A stretch of 25,523 nucleotides of DNA, from IMG/VR virus record IMGVR_UViG_3300012362_000010, positions 1 to 25,523 of that record. One strand, written 5' to 3'. Positions 5,029-21,206 of the stretch are shown here, one piece after another. Position numbers and translations under genes: made by a program. Source of the stretch: a virus. The notes beneath the pieces were generated by a model. That model was not told where the DNA came from and did not search any database. It saw only the letters and a list, made by a program, of their open reading frames with translations. Each line of letters begins with the position of its first letter. Within the stretch, counting starts at the first letter, position 1.

Positions 5029-6219
5029 ATGAGCTATACTAGCTTTCCCAAAGTTTCTGACGTAATCAACGGGGTCAGTCAGGACGTTCGTAATCAATTG
5101 TCTTCTCAGATTGGTACATCTGGGCAGCCGGTGCTCATTGATTATACCAATCGTATTCATAAGCAGATGCTCAGGTTTAGTCGGTGGCCTTTTCTTAAAA
5201 GTGAGCCTCAGTACTTTCTTACAGAGCTTGGGCAGTCATCTTATTGGGTAGGTCCTCAGAATACCGGACCAGCAGGTACAGTCGAGACTAACTTGAACTT
5301 GAGTGATGTGTATCAGTTTAAGAAAGACTCTGTAATGGACCTGTCTAATCAGCAGGCTCTTAAGTGGTTGTTTAGTTCTCCGCAGGGTCCGAATCTCATT
5401 GACCGCACAGGGGCAGGAAGACCGGGATTACCTGCTGTGTTTGTTCAGAATCTTAACGATCCTAATATATTACAGATATTTCCTCCCCCGAACAATCAGA
5501 ATAACACGCAGCCAGCTCCTCAGGTTCCTATAGTTCAGACTACTGTGAGTGGTGCTCTACCTTTACGTACATACCTTTTAAAGATCACCTTTGTAGACTC
5601 TCTAGGCGGGGAGAGTACTTCTACAACTACGGGTGCTCCTCTTTTTATCCCAGCGAATAGCTTAGCAGTGGTGAAGAGTCCCGCGCTTGGCATTTTCGGA
5701 GTTCTCCCTGACGGCTTTAGTGTGTCAGGAGTACAATATAATCGTTACAATGTGTATGCGGTGCAAGCTACACTTGTTAACGGCATACCTACTAATGAAG
5801 GCACAGAGACGAAGCAGAACTCTGTGCCTATTTTATTTGGTACCGACTGGACTGAGCCGGGGACTGGGCTGTTGACTAGTGGGGCTTCAGTTCCGAGGGT
5901 TAATACTCTTCAGCCTGTTGGGGCTTATGTTATTAAGTTTGAGTACTACAAGAACAGGCTTAAGCTAGTTACAGCAGATCAGTATCTTCAAATCCCTGAT
6001 GATTACATAGACGTGGTTATAGCAGGTGTAACAGCTCTTGCCATGAAGTTGATGGGCAAGGTTGAAGAAGCTCAGATGCACTTTCAGATTTTCAAGACAG
6101 GTCTGACTGAGATGATTCAGGACAAGAACCAATTCCCCGAGGGAGTTGAGTTCATCCGGCCTGATAGTAATAGCTATGTTAATACTCAGATTCTCGGCTA
6201 CCTAGACCCGTTCTTTTAG
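5029..6219 (+). CDS. Head-tail adaptor / tail tubular protein A-like
   Basis: A 396-residue protein starting at ATG 5029. An in-frame TTG lies 9 nt upstream, but the AGGGTGG ribosome site at 5012-5018 is spaced correctly only for the ATG. The N-terminal part (a VLIDYTNRIHKQMLRFSRWPF helix followed by YFLTE) and the C-terminal part (YYKNRLKLVTADQYLQIPDDYIDVVIAGVTALAMK, then a long helix) resemble the helical-bundle adaptors that connect portal to tail in short-tailed phages (T7 gp11, P22 gp4 group). The middle (about residues 150-300) is a beta-rich, Pro/Gly/Thr-rich insertion. The function is inferred from these helices and from position, after the lysis genes and before tail genes. Confidence 0.65.
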   Translation: MSYTSFPKVSDVINGVSQDVRNQLSSQIGTSGQPVLIDYTNRIHKQMLRFSRWPFLKSEPQYFLTELGQSSYWVGPQNTGPAGTVETNLNLSDVYQFKKDSVMDLSNQQALKWLFSSPQGPNLIDRTGAGRPGLPAVFVQNLNDPNILQIFPPPNNQNNTQPAPQVPIVQTTVSGALPLRTYLLKITFVDSLGGESTSTTTGAPLFIPANSLAVVKSPALGIFGVLPDGFSVSGVQYNRYNVYAVQATLVNGIPTNEGTETKQNSVPILFGTDWTEPGTGLLTSGASVPRVNTLQPVGAYVIKFEYYKNRLKLVTADQYLQIPDDYIDVVIAGVTALAMKLMGKVEEAQMHFQIFKTGLTEMIQDKNQFPEGVEFIRPDSNSYVNTQILGYLDPFF

Positions 6220-8242: not shown

Positions 8243-8244
8243 TA

Positions 8245-10710
8245 ATGCCTGAATTAAACATCATTGGTGCGAAAGAGAAGAATAGATACTTCCCCTATCA
8301 GGGGGCTTTACGTGTGACTCGTAAGAGCTTCTGGACTGCGGGACAGGATAGCTATACTCTTCCGCCTGCGCAGAACCCTGATTTGTTTCAGTTGATGACT
8401 AATGTTGAGCCTATTAATCGGGGAGTTATACAGAGACGTAGAGGATACCAGCAGTACTCCAATCAAGTTCCCAGTATTCCTTATAGAGAAGGATTTAGCT
8501 TCAGAAGTGAAAGTCTTAATCTGAAGAACATGATATGGACTTCCACAGCTAATGTTTTAGCTCTCTCCGAGACAACGGGACTCAATTATTTGTCCCCTGT
8601 TTTTACTCCTTCTCTCTCTGCAAACTTTGCTCCAAGAATGGTCCTTAGTAGAAACTATGGATACTTCGCGGATGGCGTGCAAGCTGATTCCGTTAAGTGG
8701 GACGGCACAACTATCGCAGGGAATCTTACTAATTGGGGAATAGATATTAAAGGGAATCCAGCTTCTACTAATGGACCCAATGCTCCTGGTACGGCTGCGG
8801 ATGTTGCTAATGGAGGGAGTTCTCCGGTCTGGGCTAACCCTAACAACATCAAAGTTCAGGATGGAAACTTCGCTGCTGTTAATCTTACCGCAGGACAAAC
8901 TACAAGTGACTATCTACAAGGGACTAATTTTGGATTCGCAGTTACACCTGCTGCTTCTGTTATTACAGGAGTGAAAGTAGATATAAAAGGGAAACAAACA
9001 GATGTAACAGCAGGGGATCAAGTAGCTATTGCAGTAATGAAGGATGCTACCCATTGGAGTGCGTATAGATTAGTGCAGTTCTCTACTGTGAATGGCTTCC
9101 TGACCTTGGGTGGTTCCAATGATACGTGGGGTCTGTCTCTGACTGGTACAGATGTAAACTCAGTGCCTTTTGGAGTTGTGATTGTCGTCTCCAACATTTC
9201 AGGTCAAGCCTGCACCTATTCAATGGACTTCGTTACAATTACTGCTTATGTAAGTGGCAGTGCTATTGTTCTAGGTGCCCCAGCGGGGACAGGAATAACA
9301 CTACTCAGTGGAAGAATCTATACTATTGTCTTTCAAAATACAAAGACAGGGCACACTTCAGGTCTGTATCCATTTTCAGCCAGTACAGGACCTTTAACAA
9401 ATCAAGGTCAGCCTTTAAGTGGTCTGCCTGTATCTAGTGATCCCCAAGTAGACCAGAAGCTTCTATTAGCAACAGCAGATGGTGGGGATGAAACAACTCT
9501 GTATCTAGTGGCTCAGATTTTAAATGCTACAACTACGTACACAGATACAATGCCGGATTCTGTCCTGTTAACACAGCCTATCTATCAACAGACTAATCAA
9601 GATGGTAGCTTGCATGGAGTGGCTAATAACAATATACCGCCACTTTTCAACTTCCCAACTAAGCATAAAGGCCGGATATACGGCAGTATCCAGAGTACTC
9701 TTTACTTTAGTAAGAACCTTGATGACGTAACTACATCTACAGGTACCATTACTTCTAAATGGGAAGAAGCGTATCCTGCTACGAACCAAATGGATGTCAG
9801 TGAAACTGCTGAGACTATTCAAGGTATAATGAGTGACGGGGAAACTTTGTGGATCGCTACAGAGCGATGTATACGTCGGTTAATTGGCGACTCACCCAGT
9901 AACTTCCAGAAGCCTGAAATCCAGTTCAATGAAGCTGGAGTACTGAATATGGATAGTTGGAAGATTGTTTACTCTGAGGGTCAACCTATTGGAACCATGT
10001 GGATCACTCCTGATTTTAGAGTAATGGAATCGGACTTCAATACGTTTAAGGATGTGGGAACACCTATTCAGGATGTACTAAATACTATAAGTGTCGCTAA
10101 TGTTTCAAAGATACATGCCTCTTTTGTTCAAAAAGGCACCTCGGAATACTACATGCTCTATATCCCTAGTGCCAGTACCGAACCAAACACAGTTTGCGTG
10201 TATAACCTGCGATCTAAACGCTGGTGCGTATGGGTGCCTATTGATACCATTACAGCTAGCTTGTTTTTCATAGATGGAACAGGTGCCCCTCGATGGATGT
10301 TCGCAGCAAATGCGGGTTCAATCTATGAGTGGAAAGATACTATTGTTCCACAAGATCGTGTGACTAATACTCCAGTGTCCTATGATGTAACTCTTAAGAC
10401 TTCTTGGTTAGATTTTGGGGATGAAGGGCTTACTAAGGCTTTCAATAAAATCATAGCTACCACTTCTGATCCTTTGCTAACTGTAACTGTTCAAGGAGCT
10501 ATTACAGATACAGACCTAGACACAGGGGGAGTTTTAGTGCTCCCTGCTACACCTTTACAACAGGACATTTTTGGTGATCTATTTGTTCCTATGGTCGCCC
10601 AAGATGGTAGGTACAAGTGGTATCAATTAACCTTTACAAGTCCTGCTAGTTTAGTTACAGATGTACTAGATGGCTTTGACTTTGAAATCCTGCCCTCAAT
10701 GAGAATGTAA
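8245..10710 (+). CDS. Large tail protein, nozzle / tail tubular protein B-like
   Basis: An 821-residue protein, the largest tail component. Near the N-terminus, NVEPINRGVIQRRRGYQQY matches the pattern (N-x-x-P...G-x-x-x-R-R-x-G) seen at the start of nozzle-type tail proteins. Residues about 120-155 (NYGYFADGVQADSVKWDG) and 475-700 (GRIYGSIQSTLYFSKN, IQGIMSDGETLWIATERCI, VYNLRSKRWCVW, MFAANAGSIYEWKD) look like successive beta-propeller blades. A beta-sandwich insertion lies between (about 190-340). By position after the adaptor, and by size, it probably corresponds to T7 gp12 / P22 gp10, the tube end through which DNA leaves. The start has only a weak ribosome site and probably couples to the upstream gene, whose stop is 2 nt away. 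Confidence 0.65.
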   Translation: MPELNIIGAKEKNRYFPYQGALRVTRKSFWTAGQDSYTLPPAQNPDLFQLMTNVEPINRGVIQRRRGYQQYSNQVPSIPYREGFSFRSESLNLKNMIWTSTANVLALSETTGLNYLSPVFTPSLSANFAPRMVLSRNYGYFADGVQADSVKWDGTTIAGNLTNWGIDIKGNPASTNGPNAPGTAADVANGGSSPVWANPNNIKVQDGNFAAVNLTAGQTTSDYLQGTNFGFAVTPAASVITGVKVDIKGKQTDVTAGDQVAIAVMKDATHWSAYRLVQFSTVNGFLTLGGSNDTWGLSLTGTDVNSVPFGVVIVVSNISGQACTYSMDFVTITAYVSGSAIVLGAPAGTGITLLSGRIYTIVFQNTKTGHTSGLYPFSASTGPLTNQGQPLSGLPVSSDPQVDQKLLLATADGGDETTLYLVAQILNATTTYTDTMPDSVLLTQPIYQQTNQDGSLHGVANNNIPPLFNFPTKHKGRIYGSIQSTLYFSKNLDDVTTSTGTITSKWEEAYPATNQMDVSETAETIQGIMSDGETLWIATERCIRRLIGDSPSNFQKPEIQFNEAGVLNMDSWKIVYSEGQPIGTMWITPDFRVMESDFNTFKDVGTPIQDVLNTISVANVSKIHASFVQKGTSEYYMLYIPSASTEPNTVCVYNLRSKRWCVWVPIDTITASLFFIDGTGAPRWMFAANAGSIYEWKDTIVPQDRVTNTPVSYDVTLKTSWLDFGDEGLTKAFNKIIATTSDPLLTVTVQGAITDTDLDTGGVLVLPATPLQQDIFGDLFVPMVAQDGRYKWYQLTFTSPASLVTDVLDGFDFEILPSMRM

Positions 10711-12316: not shown

Positions 12317-12317
12317 A

Positions 12318-13493
12318 ATGCCTCCATTCGATCAAAATACAAATCAACCCAGTAACTTTGGCAGCGGTGACTTCAGCGGTCAGCTAAATGATATGCTGGC
12401 TCCTTATCAACAGATGGCTCAAAAGATGCAGAGCCCTTACGCTACTATGAGTCCTAATAGCTGGCTAGCTAGGAACCATCCTCAAGCGGCGGGTATGCTA
12501 GATAACGCCTTCTTAACAATGGGCTCAATTCCAAGTCCACAAGGACCTGAGGGTGTAGGTGGGGGTATATCTAGAATGATGCAAGGTCTAATGGGGGCTC
12601 AGCAATATCGCCGCCAACAGATGATGCAGAACATGATGATGCCCTATCAGATGATGATGCCTCAGTTACAGGCTCAGGATATGATGGGTCAAATTGAAGA
12701 AAGAAAGTTTAGAGCGCCTCTAGAAATGGCCCAAGCAGAGAGGGCAAATGCACAGAGTAGTATGTACTTAGACTTGGAACGTCATCGTCAAGAAACAGAA
12801 CGACAAGGGCAGGAACGAATAGAAGGCACAATTAATCCGGCAATGCTAATGCATAGGCGTGCTTTAATACAAGCAGGTTTGCCCCCAGATGCCGATATTA
12901 ACAAGGCTACTCCTGAGCAGACAGAGAGATATGGACAAGCTCTAGATACTATTCAAAAAAAGAATCAACCTGCGGGTTCCTTTGAAGAGCATATAGGTAA
13001 TTTATTGGGTTTCCCCCAGGGGTCTCCCGAAAGAGCGGAAGGGGAACGCCTTAAGACATTTCATCTCCAAAACATAGGAGCAGGTGCGGGTGCTAGAACT
13101 CAGGCAGAACAAAATATCACACAGCCTCCTAAAGACATTAAGGATTTTATATCCCAAGAGGATAAGACTGTCTATAGAGACATACCTGCCCTTGATAGCT
13201 TTGATAAATTTAAGGAAGCTTCCGGCATCGCTGGTAAGATGTCGGATATTGATCCTATAGCAAAGAACCAACTTCAATCCGATTATAACAAACGTAAAGC
13301 AGAGTTTAATGCTGCAATGACCAAGAGGGATACTGAGAGGGCTCAGTGGAAGCGTAGTTCTGCCCCTAGTCAGGGAATAGGTTTCTTTGAATGGCTTGCC
13401 AATCCTAAGCCATATGATAACGCAGCTCCTTCTCAGCTTCCTCCTGAAGCTGCTAATGCTCCACGAGAAGTAGATAAAAACTGGCACTACTAG
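12318..13493 (+). CDS. Met/Gln-rich putative internal virion (ejection) protein, middle
   Basis: ATG 12318 is the likely start (391 aa): GGTGGA at 12305-12310 sits 7 nt upstream and the previous stop is 1 nt away, while the in-frame GTG at 12210 would overlap the previous gene by 107 nt. Residues 1-120 are Gln/Met/Asn/Pro-rich, with a striking run of Met and Gln around residues 95-120 (RRQQMMQNMMMPYQMMM). A long charged helix follows (about 125-180, Arg/Glu/Gln-rich), then a soluble helical C-terminal half. It pairs with the neighbouring low-complexity protein and with the 2,035-residue protein as a probable ejection complex. No enzymatic motif was seen. Confidence 0.55.
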   Translation: MPPFDQNTNQPSNFGSGDFSGQLNDMLAPYQQMAQKMQSPYATMSPNSWLARNHPQAAGMLDNAFLTMGSIPSPQGPEGVGGGISRMMQGLMGAQQYRRQQMMQNMMMPYQMMMPQLQAQDMMGQIEERKFRAPLEMAQAERANAQSSMYLDLERHRQETERQGQERIEGTINPAMLMHRRALIQAGLPPDADINKATPEQTERYGQALDTIQKKNQPAGSFEEHIGNLLGFPQGSPERAEGERLKTFHLQNIGAGAGARTQAEQNITQPPKDIKDFISQEDKTVYRDIPALDSFDKFKEASGIAGKMSDIDPIAKNQLQSDYNKRKAEFNAAMTKRDTERAQWKRSSAPSQGIGFFEWLANPKPYDNAAPSQLPPEAANAPREVDKNWHY

Positions 13494-13501
13494 ACTTAAC
13501 T

Positions 13502-16500
13502 ATGCCTCAAGACCCTCAACCTCAAGGTACACAGCTTCCTTCTGTTCCAGGTGAGGATAAGCTCCTAGACATCATACGTAACTCTCCCCTACGGGATAGT
13601 GAACGTAGACAACTCTGGGAGACTTATCATACACCAGGAGATGAGAAGGCATTCACAGGAGCCTTAAACAAGCTCGACATGAATGATGAGACTAAGAGAG
13701 CTATGTACGAGATGCGCTGGTTACCTTCTAAGCCGTCTCCTACTACTCAGGCTGCTTCTAGTTTAGATACTCGCCCTCGGGCGAAGGGAGATGTGCGTCC
13801 ATCTACTACCACTATCTATAACCAACAAGCTGCCCAGAAAATGATAGACCCTTATCTGGCTGTAGGACAGCAAACTCTAGATGCCTTTAAGGATGCTCCT
13901 TCTGCGTTTAAACCTAGCTTCTCTCCTCAAGAATTAGAGCAAGGCAAAGACTTAATCACCAGTCTTCTGCCTGTAGATCGTAACGCTCCTCCCTCTATCT
14001 TAACAGGTACAGTAGCAGCTCATGCAGGAGCTACACTTCGTCGAGCAGGTCAGTTAGGAAGTGATGTCCTCGGGGCAGTTAGTTCCCCGTTTAACCTAGC
14101 TACCGCTGGTATCCAACAACACATTAGTACCATCATTGAACCTTGGCAGAACCTTGCTCGTCAAATGTTCAGTAAAGAATCTAGTCCTGATCCTAAAACA
14201 GGTCGCTATAGTACAGGTAATGAGGACATTGATAAAGCCCTAGATACCGCTGTAGGCGCTATTCCCTTTATCTTAACCGATGCTGCTATGACTAGGCGGC
14301 CTACCCCACTTGAACAAAGCATAGATCAAATGAGGGGACAGGCTAAGGTTACCCCTAGAAGTGAAAGACCTGCTTCTGATGTTAATGCTGTGAGTGCTCG
14401 AACCCAACAGATTAAAGCCGGACTAAATAAAACCACCCCTATTGGTCCTATCTCTGAAACTGGTGGGCAGCAATTACACCTTGACTTCGCAACTAAGGCT
14501 CCTACAGAGGCACAGGCTCCCGTTAGAACAGATGGAGCGTCTAAGTCTGGAAATGCCCCTGTTGTAGATAAGCAGGCTCAAGTAGGTATGCCTTCGGAGC
14601 CTTCTGCTCTCATAGCCCCTAAGCCCGGTCTCCCAACTCATGATGCTCTTGTAGACGCCATGATTGCTAAGGGCGTTGACAACCGCTTTGCTGAGGTGCG
14701 TGCAGATCAGTTACTTGATGCGGCTTCTGGTAAGTCTGGTTTTCAACCAGTTGAACGCCGTAATGCCCCTACTCTTATAGATCACTATATGGGAGAGGAA
14801 CGTAGAGGTGTGGCTCCTAAGGCTGAGGAAGCTAAGTCTGTACAAGCTCGTATTGAGACTCCTAAAGTTGAAGCTCCTAAACCCGAGCCTTCTCCAGTAA
14901 CCTTTGGTAGGTTTATGGGTGAGCTTCATCGTAGGTTTGACTCCGTTGCAGACTTAGGGCGTCAAGCTGATCTAGCGGAGAACGATCAACAGGCTAATGA
15001 TCTTCAATCTAAGAGTAAAGAAATAGAACGTCAGACTCGTGATGCTTCTAGACAGTACATGAACACACTGCCTAGTGAAAGTGTGGAACAGCATCAAGAT
15101 GCTTTCCTTAAGGGGGCAGAGCGCCTAGAGGCTCAGTCAAAAGGTGTTAAAGATAAGACAGAGAATACTATTAAGAACCGTGGAATTAAAGGTGAACTTG
15201 TAGAACTGCGTTCTGGGGGCGGACCTGTTCAATCAGGAATTGATCCTAGAACAGGGGAGAAAATAGCCGTCAAACCAGAGGCTACTGTTCGTAGAGCATT
15301 TCGTTCTCTTGCAGATGAAGCTCAAGGTCGTGTTCCTACTTCTCCTTTTGACGATATTGAGATAATAGGATTGCCTGAAGGTCCATCAAGAGAGGAAGGA
15401 AAAGCTTGGCTAGCCTCGCGTTTAGCTGATCGTAAGAGCATTGCGAGAAAGTTCACCGATTTAATCCAAGTAGCTCAAGAGACAGGTGCTTCTATCCACG
15501 ATCTTGGAATTGAAGACCTGGAAAAAGAACTAAGAGCTATTGATATAGACTTGGGTAAATACACCAAGCCCGCGAGTACAGGACGCAGGCCCAACGTAAC
15601 TCCTGAAGTAGATGAGAACGGAGCTATTAAACCTAATAGTCTTCTAGACTCTTGGACAAAGAAAGAAGCCGATCTTGTCTTTGGTAGGAACCTACGCTCC
15701 ATTCCTACAGATGAAGAGTTCTTTCAACATGCTGAGACGCTTAAGGAAAAGGGCCGTTTGTTTAGGGGTGTAGCTGAAGAAGCTCAAAGGATACTAGATC
15801 AACGTAGGACCCAGCCGGGTGGACGACAAGGTGAACGCGGGGCTATTGGTGAACCCTTACGTGGCAAAGTCACGCCTGTTTCTCTAGAAACTCCCTCAGT
15901 GGATGACTTCATAACTAGAGTTAAGAGGCTGGGTAAGTTAGTAAGAAACCCAGATGGAGACTTAATTAACACTCATAGAGGAGAGGCTAATATAACTGTT
16001 TCTAGAGTCACCCCGGAAACTACGGAAGGTGCGGTGGGTTTCCTTTTAGTGGATTCTAAGGGTGCTACACACTTTATAGATAATCATATCAGGGGTGCTT
16101 GGGATGTAGCTATGCACGAGGAAGTTGCTGAAGCTGCGTTTCCTCATTTGAAGTCTATGACAATAGACAAGGCACTTCAGGCTATTCTGTCTAATCCTGA
16201 TGTTGTACGAAAGGCTGGATTAGGACATTATGAGTTTAATGCGTTAAATAATTCTAGGGTTGTAAAAGCAGTTGAGTTAGACTTAATTAAGGATCGGCAG
16301 ACTAATAGAGAAGTTCGTATTCAAAGTAAAGATAACTCCCTTGGAAAGAGTTCAACTCTTACAATTGAACCGGGCTGGGAAGACCTTGGAAAAGCCATTG
16401 AGAAGGCTAAGGCTCGTCAAGGTTGGAACCAACGGGGAGTTTCTGGCACTACCAGCTTAGTAAGTGGAACAGCAGGGGCCTTAGTTGGAATGAAAGTAGG

Positions 16501-19618: not shown

Positions 19619-20359
19619 ATGGGAAATAAAAAAGCCACCCCCGCACGGTACCCCGTGAGAGAATGGCTTGGTCAATACGAGAGCTACCTTCTAATTATGA
19701 AAGGTAGCAAAGTCTTTAGATACTACGACAAAGTACTAGAACGCTTGTTCGCTATGTTTCCGAACCACACAGGATTGGAACAGTTCACTACGGTAGACAT
19801 AGCAGACTACAAGCTAGCTCGTGTGCAGCAGGGTAAGAAGGAACTCTCCATAGTCTATGAGCTATATGTGTTCTATGCCTTCTGGCGCTGGCTTATGGAG
19901 GATAAGGGATTACCACTATACAACCCTGCTAGAGCCTTCAAGAATAAGACCCCCAGTAAAAGCAAGAAGATCAACATCAGCTTAGGTGAACTTAATCGTT
20001 TGTTGGCTGAGTGCTCTACCCATGAGAAACGGGTTGTGCTTAACGTGATACAAGGGGTCCCGTGTCCTAAAGGAAAGCCGAGACAGGTAATAAGGGACGC
20101 GGCTGCTAGAGCGGGATTGCCCGCTTTTGATTTGTACGAGCTTAAGCTTAATCTTAGTAGAAGACTTAACAGGGATATCATCCAGTTTTATTGCCAGCAA
20201 TTGCTCAATGCCCTTCCTCCTGAAGCCCAGCTTGAGGGCAACGCCCTCACTACAGTCCAAGCTACGCCCCTTAATGAACGGCCCCCGATCTGTCACAGTG
20301 ACTATTACCCCTCTATTGTTGGTGGGGTTAATGAGCAAGAGATGAGTCCCAAAGGGTAA
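19619..20359 (+). CDS. Degenerate tyrosine-recombinase-like protein
   Basis: A 246-residue ORF with a good ribosome site (AAGGAGAGGGT), last in the late operon. Residues about 12-108 look like the SAM-like core-binding domain of phage integrases (WLGQYESYLLIMKG; TTVDIADYKLARVQQG; VFYAFWRWLMEDKGLPLYNPARAFK). After a Lys/Ser linker, SLGELNRLLAEC matches the start of a catalytic domain. The centre, including the first catalytic Arg, is then missing, and the text resumes at RDAAARAGLPAFDLYELKLNLSRRL, where the expected HxxR is YxxK (Y173, K176). It should therefore bind DNA but not recombine it. The C-terminal 126 codons overlap the RlpA-like gene antisense. It could be a retired integrase kept as a DNA-binding protein, or a decaying gene whose 3' part is open only by constraint. 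Confidence 0.65.
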   Translation: MGNKKATPARYPVREWLGQYESYLLIMKGSKVFRYYDKVLERLFAMFPNHTGLEQFTTVDIADYKLARVQQGKKELSIVYELYVFYAFWRWLMEDKGLPLYNPARAFKNKTPSKSKKINISLGELNRLLAECSTHEKRVVLNVIQGVPCPKGKPRQVIRDAAARAGLPAFDLYELKLNLSRRLNRDIIQFYCQQLLNALPPEAQLEGNALTTVQATPLNERPPICHSDYYPSIVGGVNEQEMSPKG

Positions 20360-20590
20360 GGTCCTATGAGCTACAGTCATAGCCATTTTATTATAAGGTT
20401 TACCGTTAGCCATTATGGAACCTGATTCGTCTCCATACCAACTACTCATCATCCAGGTTACTTGGTCCTGCACAGGTCCTAGAACATCAGGACTTGAAGC
20501 CTGTGCTGTCGGAGTCAGGGGGAACATTGTAGTTCCCATCAGCATCAATAAAGCTGTCAAAAATAGCTTCACTAAATTCACCCGCTTCAT
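19982..20590 (-). CDS. Secreted RlpA-like double-psi beta-barrel protein
   Basis: Starting at ATG 20590 gives 202 residues with a textbook signal peptide (KR n-region, LFLTALLMLM core, cleavage after TAQA at about residue 31). An alternative ATG at 20647 has a better-spaced AGGGG but adds 19 residues and overlaps the kinase more. Residues about 49-138 form the RlpA-type double-psi beta-barrel: SSWYG, MANGKPYN, MTVAHRTLPFGT, VTDRGPF, RSLDCSEGVALKLG. In RlpA lytic transglycosylases the NGE-x-YD signature carries acidic residues; here they are K64 and N67, while H75 is kept, so enzymatic activity is doubtful and glycan binding is possible. The last ~64 residues are basic and are encoded opposite the recombinase-like gene. 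It is the last gene of the early operon. Domain call strong; start and activity uncertain. Confidence 0.8.
   Translation of the reverse strand: MKRVNLVKLFLTALLMLMGTTMFPLTPTAQASSPDVLGPVQDQVTWMMSSWYGDESGSIMANGKPYNKMAMTVAHRTLPFGTHLLLINPTNNRGVIVTVTDRGPFIKGRSLDCSEGVALKLGFRRKGIEQLLAIKLDDIPVKSSTKIKLKLVQIKSGQSRSSSRVPYYLSRLSFRTRDPLYHVKHNPFLMGRALSQQTIKFT
20364..20382 (+). terminator. Weak hairpin just after the recombinase-like stop codon
   Basis: CTATGA (20364-20369) and TCATAG (20377-20382) are perfect inverted matches around a 7-nt loop, starting 4 nt after the + strand TAA and followed by the T-rich GCCATTTTATTAT. It could end the late transcript, but it is only 6 bp, is AT-rich, and lies within the RlpA-like gene on the other strand, where it encodes part of the conserved MTVAHR stretch. 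It may be coincidental. Confidence 0.25.
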
Positions 20591-21206
20591 CCACGTAAGT
20601 AAGCTCTTTGTACTCCTCTGGCCTAAATTGATCAAAGTGAATAGCATTCAGCACCCCTATCGAGCGTCTTTTAAGATTGTGCAACTCTCCATTTTTGGCT
20701 TCAATTATAAAGTCGAAGCCTCCATAAGCATCTAAAGCTGTTTCACTAATATGATTAGGGTCACGGCCTGAATCAACAAACTGAGTTCCATCAGCATTTC
20801 GGCGGATCACCTGCACAAGGTATCCGCCTTTTTCTTTGATGTACTTCGCTTCATTTTCAAATCTTACGTCAGTGACTACTGCGATTTCGGGAGCTTCACG
20901 GGATAAGCGTTTATCGAGAGCTTGAACCCAAACATTTGGATTTTCCTTGCGAGCGACATCAGTGCCATACCACTGGAGTATAGGTGTACAGCCGTAAATA
21001 GCATCAGCCTTCCACGCAGGGTGTGCTTTCGTTTGGTGGGCCAATTGCCACTGGGGTTCAAGTTCATTGTGATGCTCCTTGCAGTAGAGTTTTAGTTCGT
21101 CGGCGAAGGCATAAATCTGAACCTGAGGATTATACTCCTGCATGTAATTAGCAACGTAGTTTTTCCCCTGACGGGCTTTGTAACCGAGTCCTATGATTGT
21201 TGGCAT
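20487..21206 (-). CDS. Deoxynucleoside monophosphate kinase
   Basis: A 239-residue P-loop protein of the phage dNMP kinase type (T4 gp1 group), which phosphorylates dNMPs to dNDPs for phage DNA synthesis. Seen features are the N-terminal IIGLGYKARQGKNYVA, which corresponds to the family's GKARSGKD-type loop with Tyr in place of the first Gly and Asn in place of Asp, LQWYGTDVAR (residues 77-86) with its substrate-binding Gly-Thr, and VTDVRFENEAKYIKEKGG (about 111-128), a hallmark of the family. The C-terminal tail is acidic. The ATG at 21206 follows TTGGAGGAA with correct spacing and overlaps the nucleotidase gene by 16 nt. Its end overlaps the RlpA-like start. Confidence 0.85.
   Translation of the reverse strand: MPTIIGLGYKARQGKNYVANYMQEYNPQVQIYAFADELKLYCKEHHNELEPQWQLAHQTKAHPAWKADAIYGCTPILQWYGTDVARKENPNVWVQALDKRLSREAPEIAVVTDVRFENEAKYIKEKGGYLVQVIRRNADGTQFVDSGRDPNHISETALDAYGGFDFIIEAKNGELHNLKRRSIGVLNAIHFDQFRPEEYKELTYVDEAGEFSEAIFDSFIDADGNYNVPPDSDSTGFKS

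Follow-up and report, generated by a model that had tools for sequence, protein, structure and literature searches.

In the uncultured tailed phage studied here, two head-on blocks of genes appear to interlock: each transcription unit would run through the last gene or genes of the other before reaching its own predicted terminator, which lies in coding sequence of the opposite strand, and the reading frames of the two terminal genes, rec and rlpA, overlap tail to tail. The DNA analysed is a stretch of 25,523 nucleotides (nt), referred to below as the window. We put forward the interlocked layout, taken as a structural description alone, with high confidence; the fuller statement, in which crossed predicted terminators and the open reading frame (ORF) overlap are combined and the regulatory step is kept conditional, is probable; and a regulatory switch at the junction is a tentative suggestion. 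The layout suggests that head-on phage units can cross in such a way that it is the terminators, and not the reading frames, that are conserved: the striking ORF overlap seems mostly fortuitous, while the arrangement concealed at the RNA level is, by prediction, conserved.

Genome organization and terminal genes

The + strand of the window carries virion genes (encoding the major capsid protein, an SU10-adaptor-like protein, an internal virion protein and a protein of 2035 aa), and the − strand encodes DNA polymerase A, an AAA ATPase, a phosphoesterase, a 5' nucleotidase, deoxynucleoside monophosphate kinase (dNMPK) and RlpA. Judged by this gene content, the junction is the meeting point of a late (+) and an early/middle (−) block. 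Genes are tightly packed around it, and a scan of the junction for sigma-70 promoters gave nothing above chance. Features of the region are listed in Table 1.

Table 1. Features at the rec/rlpA junction (window coordinates unless another genome is named)
Feature	Coordinates	Strand	Remarks
rec (rec-like ORF)	19619-20359	+	246 aa; last late-strand gene; order lost near 20228; 20231-20356 is an unconstrained tail
rlpA	19982-20590	−	Last early-strand gene; upstream ATG at 20647 also possible
rlpA ORF, upstream-ATG version	19982-20647	−	221 aa; ATG at 20590 is the likelier start
dNMPK	20487-21206	−	Deoxynucleoside monophosphate kinase; Pfam DNMK 1.3e-9; PHROG_139 5e-35
Convergent ORF overlap, codon-aligned	19982-20359	both	378 nt (126 codons)
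Apparent dual-constraint stretch	20171-20230	both	rec ...DIIQFYCQQLLNALPPEAQ; RlpA ...LGFRRKGIEQLLAIKLDDI region
Predicted intrinsic terminator, leftward (early) unit	19632-19669	−	−25.2 kcal/mol and U tract; rank 1 in window
Predicted intrinsic terminator, rightward (late) unit	20801-20828	+	−16.8 kcal/mol and U tract; rank 2 in window
Equivalents of rec-site terminator	L001 5946-5976; L035 15826-15871		
Equivalents of dNMPK-site terminator	L001 4806-4837; L035 14728-14758		Compensatory inner-stem change
Predicted early/late mRNA antisense overlap	19632-20828	both	1197 nt (L001, 1171 nt; L035, 1144 nt)

Residues 12-137 of Rec match the PHROG_1 integrase (E=2.3e-7; E=7e-8 for the homologue in the relative L035), and the protein has the SAM-like (core-binding) domain of tyrosine recombinases. 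With PF02899, the L035 protein scores 22.4 bits against a cut-off of 22.3 and the window protein falls below the cut-off. No match to a catalytic domain was found in Pfam, PHROGs or NCBIfam, and a three-way Rec alignment lacks an invariant HxLR motif and a matching C-terminal Tyr, so that the R-K-H-R-H-Y set is absent. Going by its sequence, Rec is an orphan protein with a tyrosine-recombinase-type SAM-like core-binding domain and without the catalytic residues. In the AF2 model, pLDDT is below 50 from residue 204 and below 30 over most of the tail; with a mean pLDDT of 47.7, the model was too poor for a fold search. A phage that shares single genes with the window, L027, encodes a full-length tyrosine recombinase (8243-9460) shortly downstream of a distant homologue of the 2035-aa protein encoded next to rec in the window, a position suggesting that rec may be the degenerate descendant of an integrase at the same site.

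RlpA consists of a signal-peptide-like N-terminus, an RlpA/DPBB domain (to about 20158) and a lineage-specific, unconstrained tail of approximately 60 aa. It matches Pfam DPBB_1 (PF03330) at 5e-17 (62.3 bits, cut-off 28.8), scores above the cut-off for TIGR00413 (84.6 bits, cut-off 82.15) and has conserved AHRTLPFG and TDRGPF motifs. The AF2 model is ordered to approximately residue 144 (about 20158), and most other phage RlpA proteins end directly after the domain, without a tail. rlpA begins before dNMPK, which is encoded on the same strand, has ended (20487-20590, approximately 104 nt; 95-104 nt in all three phages compared below). A Shine-Dalgarno sequence and start inside dNMPK are clear in L001 and L035; the start in the window is ambiguous (20590 or 20647). 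In total, rlpA shares 482 of its 609 nt (79%) with its neighbours in the window, 434 of 597 in L001 and 539 of 663 in L035.

Relatives carrying the gene pair

Two IMG/VR phages, L001 and L035, have convergent rec and rlpA genes in the same phase as in the window. In L001, Rec and RlpA are 42% and 50% identical to the window proteins and the overlap is 339 nt; in L035, the identities are 48% and 47% and the overlap is 438 nt. All stop codons differ between the phages. These alignments indicate that the ORF overlap is homologous across three diverged phages. L026 is the L001 contig, and the comparison rests on three genomes (window, L001 and L035).

L035 was found solely by a polymerase scan of IMG/VR; scans of that database with rec, a rec profile and part of the large protein gave L001 as the only carrier of the pair. 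INPHARED, queried with rec, the 2035-aa protein and the phosphoesterase, yielded no cultured relative, and scans of GTDB genomes yielded no relative of the pair. L027, L034 and L037-L039 were rejected as pair carriers, having only single genes in common. The window polymerase is 75-77% identical to those of both relatives, and the phosphoesterase is 84% identical to that of L001 and 39% identical to that of L035. In L035 (12549-13803), an HNH-endonuclease-like ORF (13225-13803) follows the phosphoesterase; together with the divergence of that gene, this suggests local gene replacement.

Predicted terminators and transcript overlap

The whole window was scanned for hairpins followed by U tracts, and the same scan was run in L035 and L026. 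The two highest-ranking candidates in the window are crossed over at the junction: the predicted terminator of the early unit sits inside approximately codons 5-17 of rec, and that of the late unit inside the dNMPK codons for GGYLVQVIRR. The two equivalent sites rank first and second in L035 and second and fifth in L026. Dinucleotide shuffles give a mean of 0.2-0.9 candidates at −16.8 kcal/mol or better per 21-25 kb segment. When the codons at each site are replaced by synonyms, the observed energy is reached in 0.2%, 0.5% and 0.4% of trials at the rec site (three phages) and in 0 of 1000 trials per phage at the dNMPK site. The rec-site stems have different sequences at an identical codon location in the three phages; the bulged form of the dNMPK stem is retained, with inner pairs changing from ACCT/AGGT to CTTC/GAAG.

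Between the dNMPK-rlpA region and 19669, the window has no early-strand candidate that reaches −8 kcal/mol. A weaker + strand hairpin (20109-20126, −11.0 kcal/mol) could end some late transcripts within rec. Elsewhere in the window, the SU10-adaptor-like gene contains a late-strand hairpin with a U tract (5799-5829) that may attenuate the late operon internally; L026 has it at the corresponding position (310-343), with one stem position re-paired.

Because the predicted terminators are reciprocal, the early and late mRNAs should overlap by 1.14-1.20 kb, a stretch that spans rec, rlpA and half of dNMPK. The main alternative account of such crossing is compaction, in which a lack of intergenic room places terminators in opposite genes and transcript overlap is tolerated with no regulatory effect. 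We give this account nearly even chances. It fits the tight gene packing, and it has precedent in E. coli, where an intrinsic terminator lies in the partner coding sequence on one side in 19 of 58 convergent overlaps and on both sides in 2 (PMC2174442). However, the predicted terminators do not adjoin the ORF stops: they lie 225-340 nt and 406-442 nt beyond them in the three phages. The rec-site stem, whose sequence differs in each phage at one place, fits a positional requirement, or alternatively an inherited position.

Under the regulatory reading of the crossed layout, rec would be counteracted by early transcription, and rlpA together with the 3' half of dNMPK by strong late transcription, in each case through colliding polymerases, RNase III cleavage or both. 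The early/late boundary would then look like a convergent excludon. It is possible, if doubtful, that the junction is a mutual-exclusion switch, in which the early mRNA is antisense to nearly all of rec and the late mRNA to rlpA and half of dNMPK. We would propose only with reserve that such a switch silences the terminal genes of each unit, sharpens the early-to-late transition and is what the crossed terminators are kept for. If this antisense coupling is real, the phage would have a simple, cis-encoded early/late switch. The original prediction was that the ORF overlap could tie late to early expression through antisense RNA: the tie is plausible by way of the reciprocal predicted terminators (approximately 1.2 kb), but the ORF overlap is not its basis.

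Overlap of the reading frames

The tail-to-tail overlap was described in the original prediction as codon-aligned, and its coordinates and frames, when re-derived, prove exact: codon boundaries coincide throughout the 378 nt, and each stop is a TTA leucine codon of the opposite frame (the + TAA at 20357 in RTLPFG of RlpA, and the − TAA at 19982 in SLGEL of Rec). The reported absence of TTA, CTA and TCA among the 16 Leu and 5 Ser codons of the rec frame is likewise correctly counted, but it is another way of saying that the opposite frame is open, and we do not count it as separate evidence. With the Rec residues and genome codon usage taken as given, this openness has P = 1.8e-4 (124 codons compared, in a window picked for openness). 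Opposite the RlpA domain, about 9 of 22 other phage RlpA loci have a codon-aligned antisense frame that stays open for 100 codons or longer, and further codon-aligned antisense-open runs of up to 162 codons exist in the window. The longest is at the 3' end of a + strand gene (12317-13493); the 161-aa antisense ORF opposite that gene (13002-13487) is probably fortuitous.

The overlap had also been called unusual. Its length does exceed the upper quartile for virus antisense overlaps in this phase (median 114 nt, interquartile range 27-267 nt; PMC8903798), but long codon-aligned overlaps are not exceptional in published surveys: the phase accounts for 32-33% of convergent overlaps in prokaryotes (PMC2174442), and it is common among convergent overlaps and gives longer antisense overlaps in viruses (PMC2174442, PMC8903798).

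In this phase, position 1 of a rec codon pairs with position 3 of an RlpA codon and vice versa, so that the substitution pattern reveals which frame is selected. As calibration, we used the antisense identity of control genes at equal divergence. Across 19982-20170, rec third positions are the most variable, changing in 68-81% of codons among the three phages, and RlpA-frame identity (14-24%) is equal to or below the calibration. Across 20231-20337, it is the RlpA third positions that vary most (47-78%), with no significant excess of identity in the rec frame. Between them, at 20171-20230, other-frame identity is above the calibration in all three phage pairs, with control windows reaching it in 0-7% of cases (depending on pair and frame), for limits that were set by visual inspection, ahead of the discovery of the third phage and without a formal selection test. 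These patterns indicate that constraint on the rec frame ends at about 20230 and that the RlpA frame comes under constraint only at about 20171 and onwards. The limits agree with the modelled ends of the ordered parts (RlpA, approximately 20158; Rec, approximately 20228, the latter from a low-confidence model). As read from the codon positions, true double coding is confined to about 60 nt (approximately 20 codons), and the remainder consists of two run-on tails, such as drift of the stop codons would be expected to leave.

That both C-termini are functional and selected across all 378 nt is therefore improbable, and at the amino-acid level this possibility is largely refuted by the substitution data. 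It draws on the phase and long overlap common to the three phages, and on an RlpA tail that is open further than codon usage predicts (P = 0.002, 0.083 and 0.028 in the three phages; for L001 and L035 without the window, the joint P is about 0.002). However, other-frame identity does not rise above that of control genes outside 20171-20230, and amino-acid constraint in both frames is likewise found only there; no stop is shared between the phages; AF2 predicts disorder in both tails; and most other RlpA proteins have no such extension. The codon-position test led us to reject dual coding across the full 126 codons: the double selection originally proposed shrinks to about 20 codons, flanked by a rec-only segment (19982-20170) and an RlpA-only segment (20231-20359). 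Alignment of homologues, suggested at the outset as a check, thus upheld homology and common phase but found single-frame constraint over about five-sixths of the overlap. The extra openness of the RlpA tail (19982-20170) is poorly explained by pure drift, and there is perhaps selection for a tail of any sequence. The least credible alternative, that rec or rlpA is a spurious ORF, could appeal to the frequency of antisense-open frames opposite RlpA, but it is refuted by conservation in three phages, by a conserved non-overlapping part in each gene with a domain match and a coding-type third-position substitution pattern (protein-level selection), and by good ribosome-binding sites for rec and for the rlpA genes of the relatives.

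In the interlocked reading, the overlap itself would have arisen as each ORF lost its original stop: with no space between the genes, both would have extended into the antisense frame and run on to its next stop, giving overlaps of 339-438 nt.

Comparison with known systems

A bidirectional terminator between convergent early and late operons is a textbook phage arrangement, exemplified by phi29. The junction described here occupies the same position on the life-cycle map, but no strong terminator was predicted between the units; instead, two lie crosswise, each within the unit of the other strand.

As convergent codon-aligned pairs (phase 123:321, or −0), rec and rlpA resemble known cases in their tail-to-tail phase, and the origin proposed for these by stop-codon mutation fits (PMC2174442, PMC8903798). 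The pair differs in being longer, at 378 nt, than the upper quartile of −0 overlaps in viruses, and in persisting across three diverged phages as a short dual zone flanked by unconstrained tails.

Antisense RNA in a phage structural region has been detected by RNA sequencing in LUZ100 and proposed for LIT1 and LUZ7 (PMC10134795). The likeness lies in antisense RNA opposite late genes, predicted here, and in the regulatory part suggested for it (PMC10134795); the LUZ100 antisense RNA is non-coding and was seen by RNA sequencing, whereas here it is the predicted 3' end of a coding early mRNA.

The closest parallel is with the convergent excludon, or overlapping 3' UTR arrangement, reviewed in PMC7154746, in which mRNAs are mutually antisense and each terminator lies past the end of the neighbouring gene, as is predicted here. 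The phage junction, so far as it can be predicted from sequence, is distinguished by dividing early and late blocks, by an overlap that takes in whole coding genes, and by conserved predicted terminators within coding sequence on both sides.
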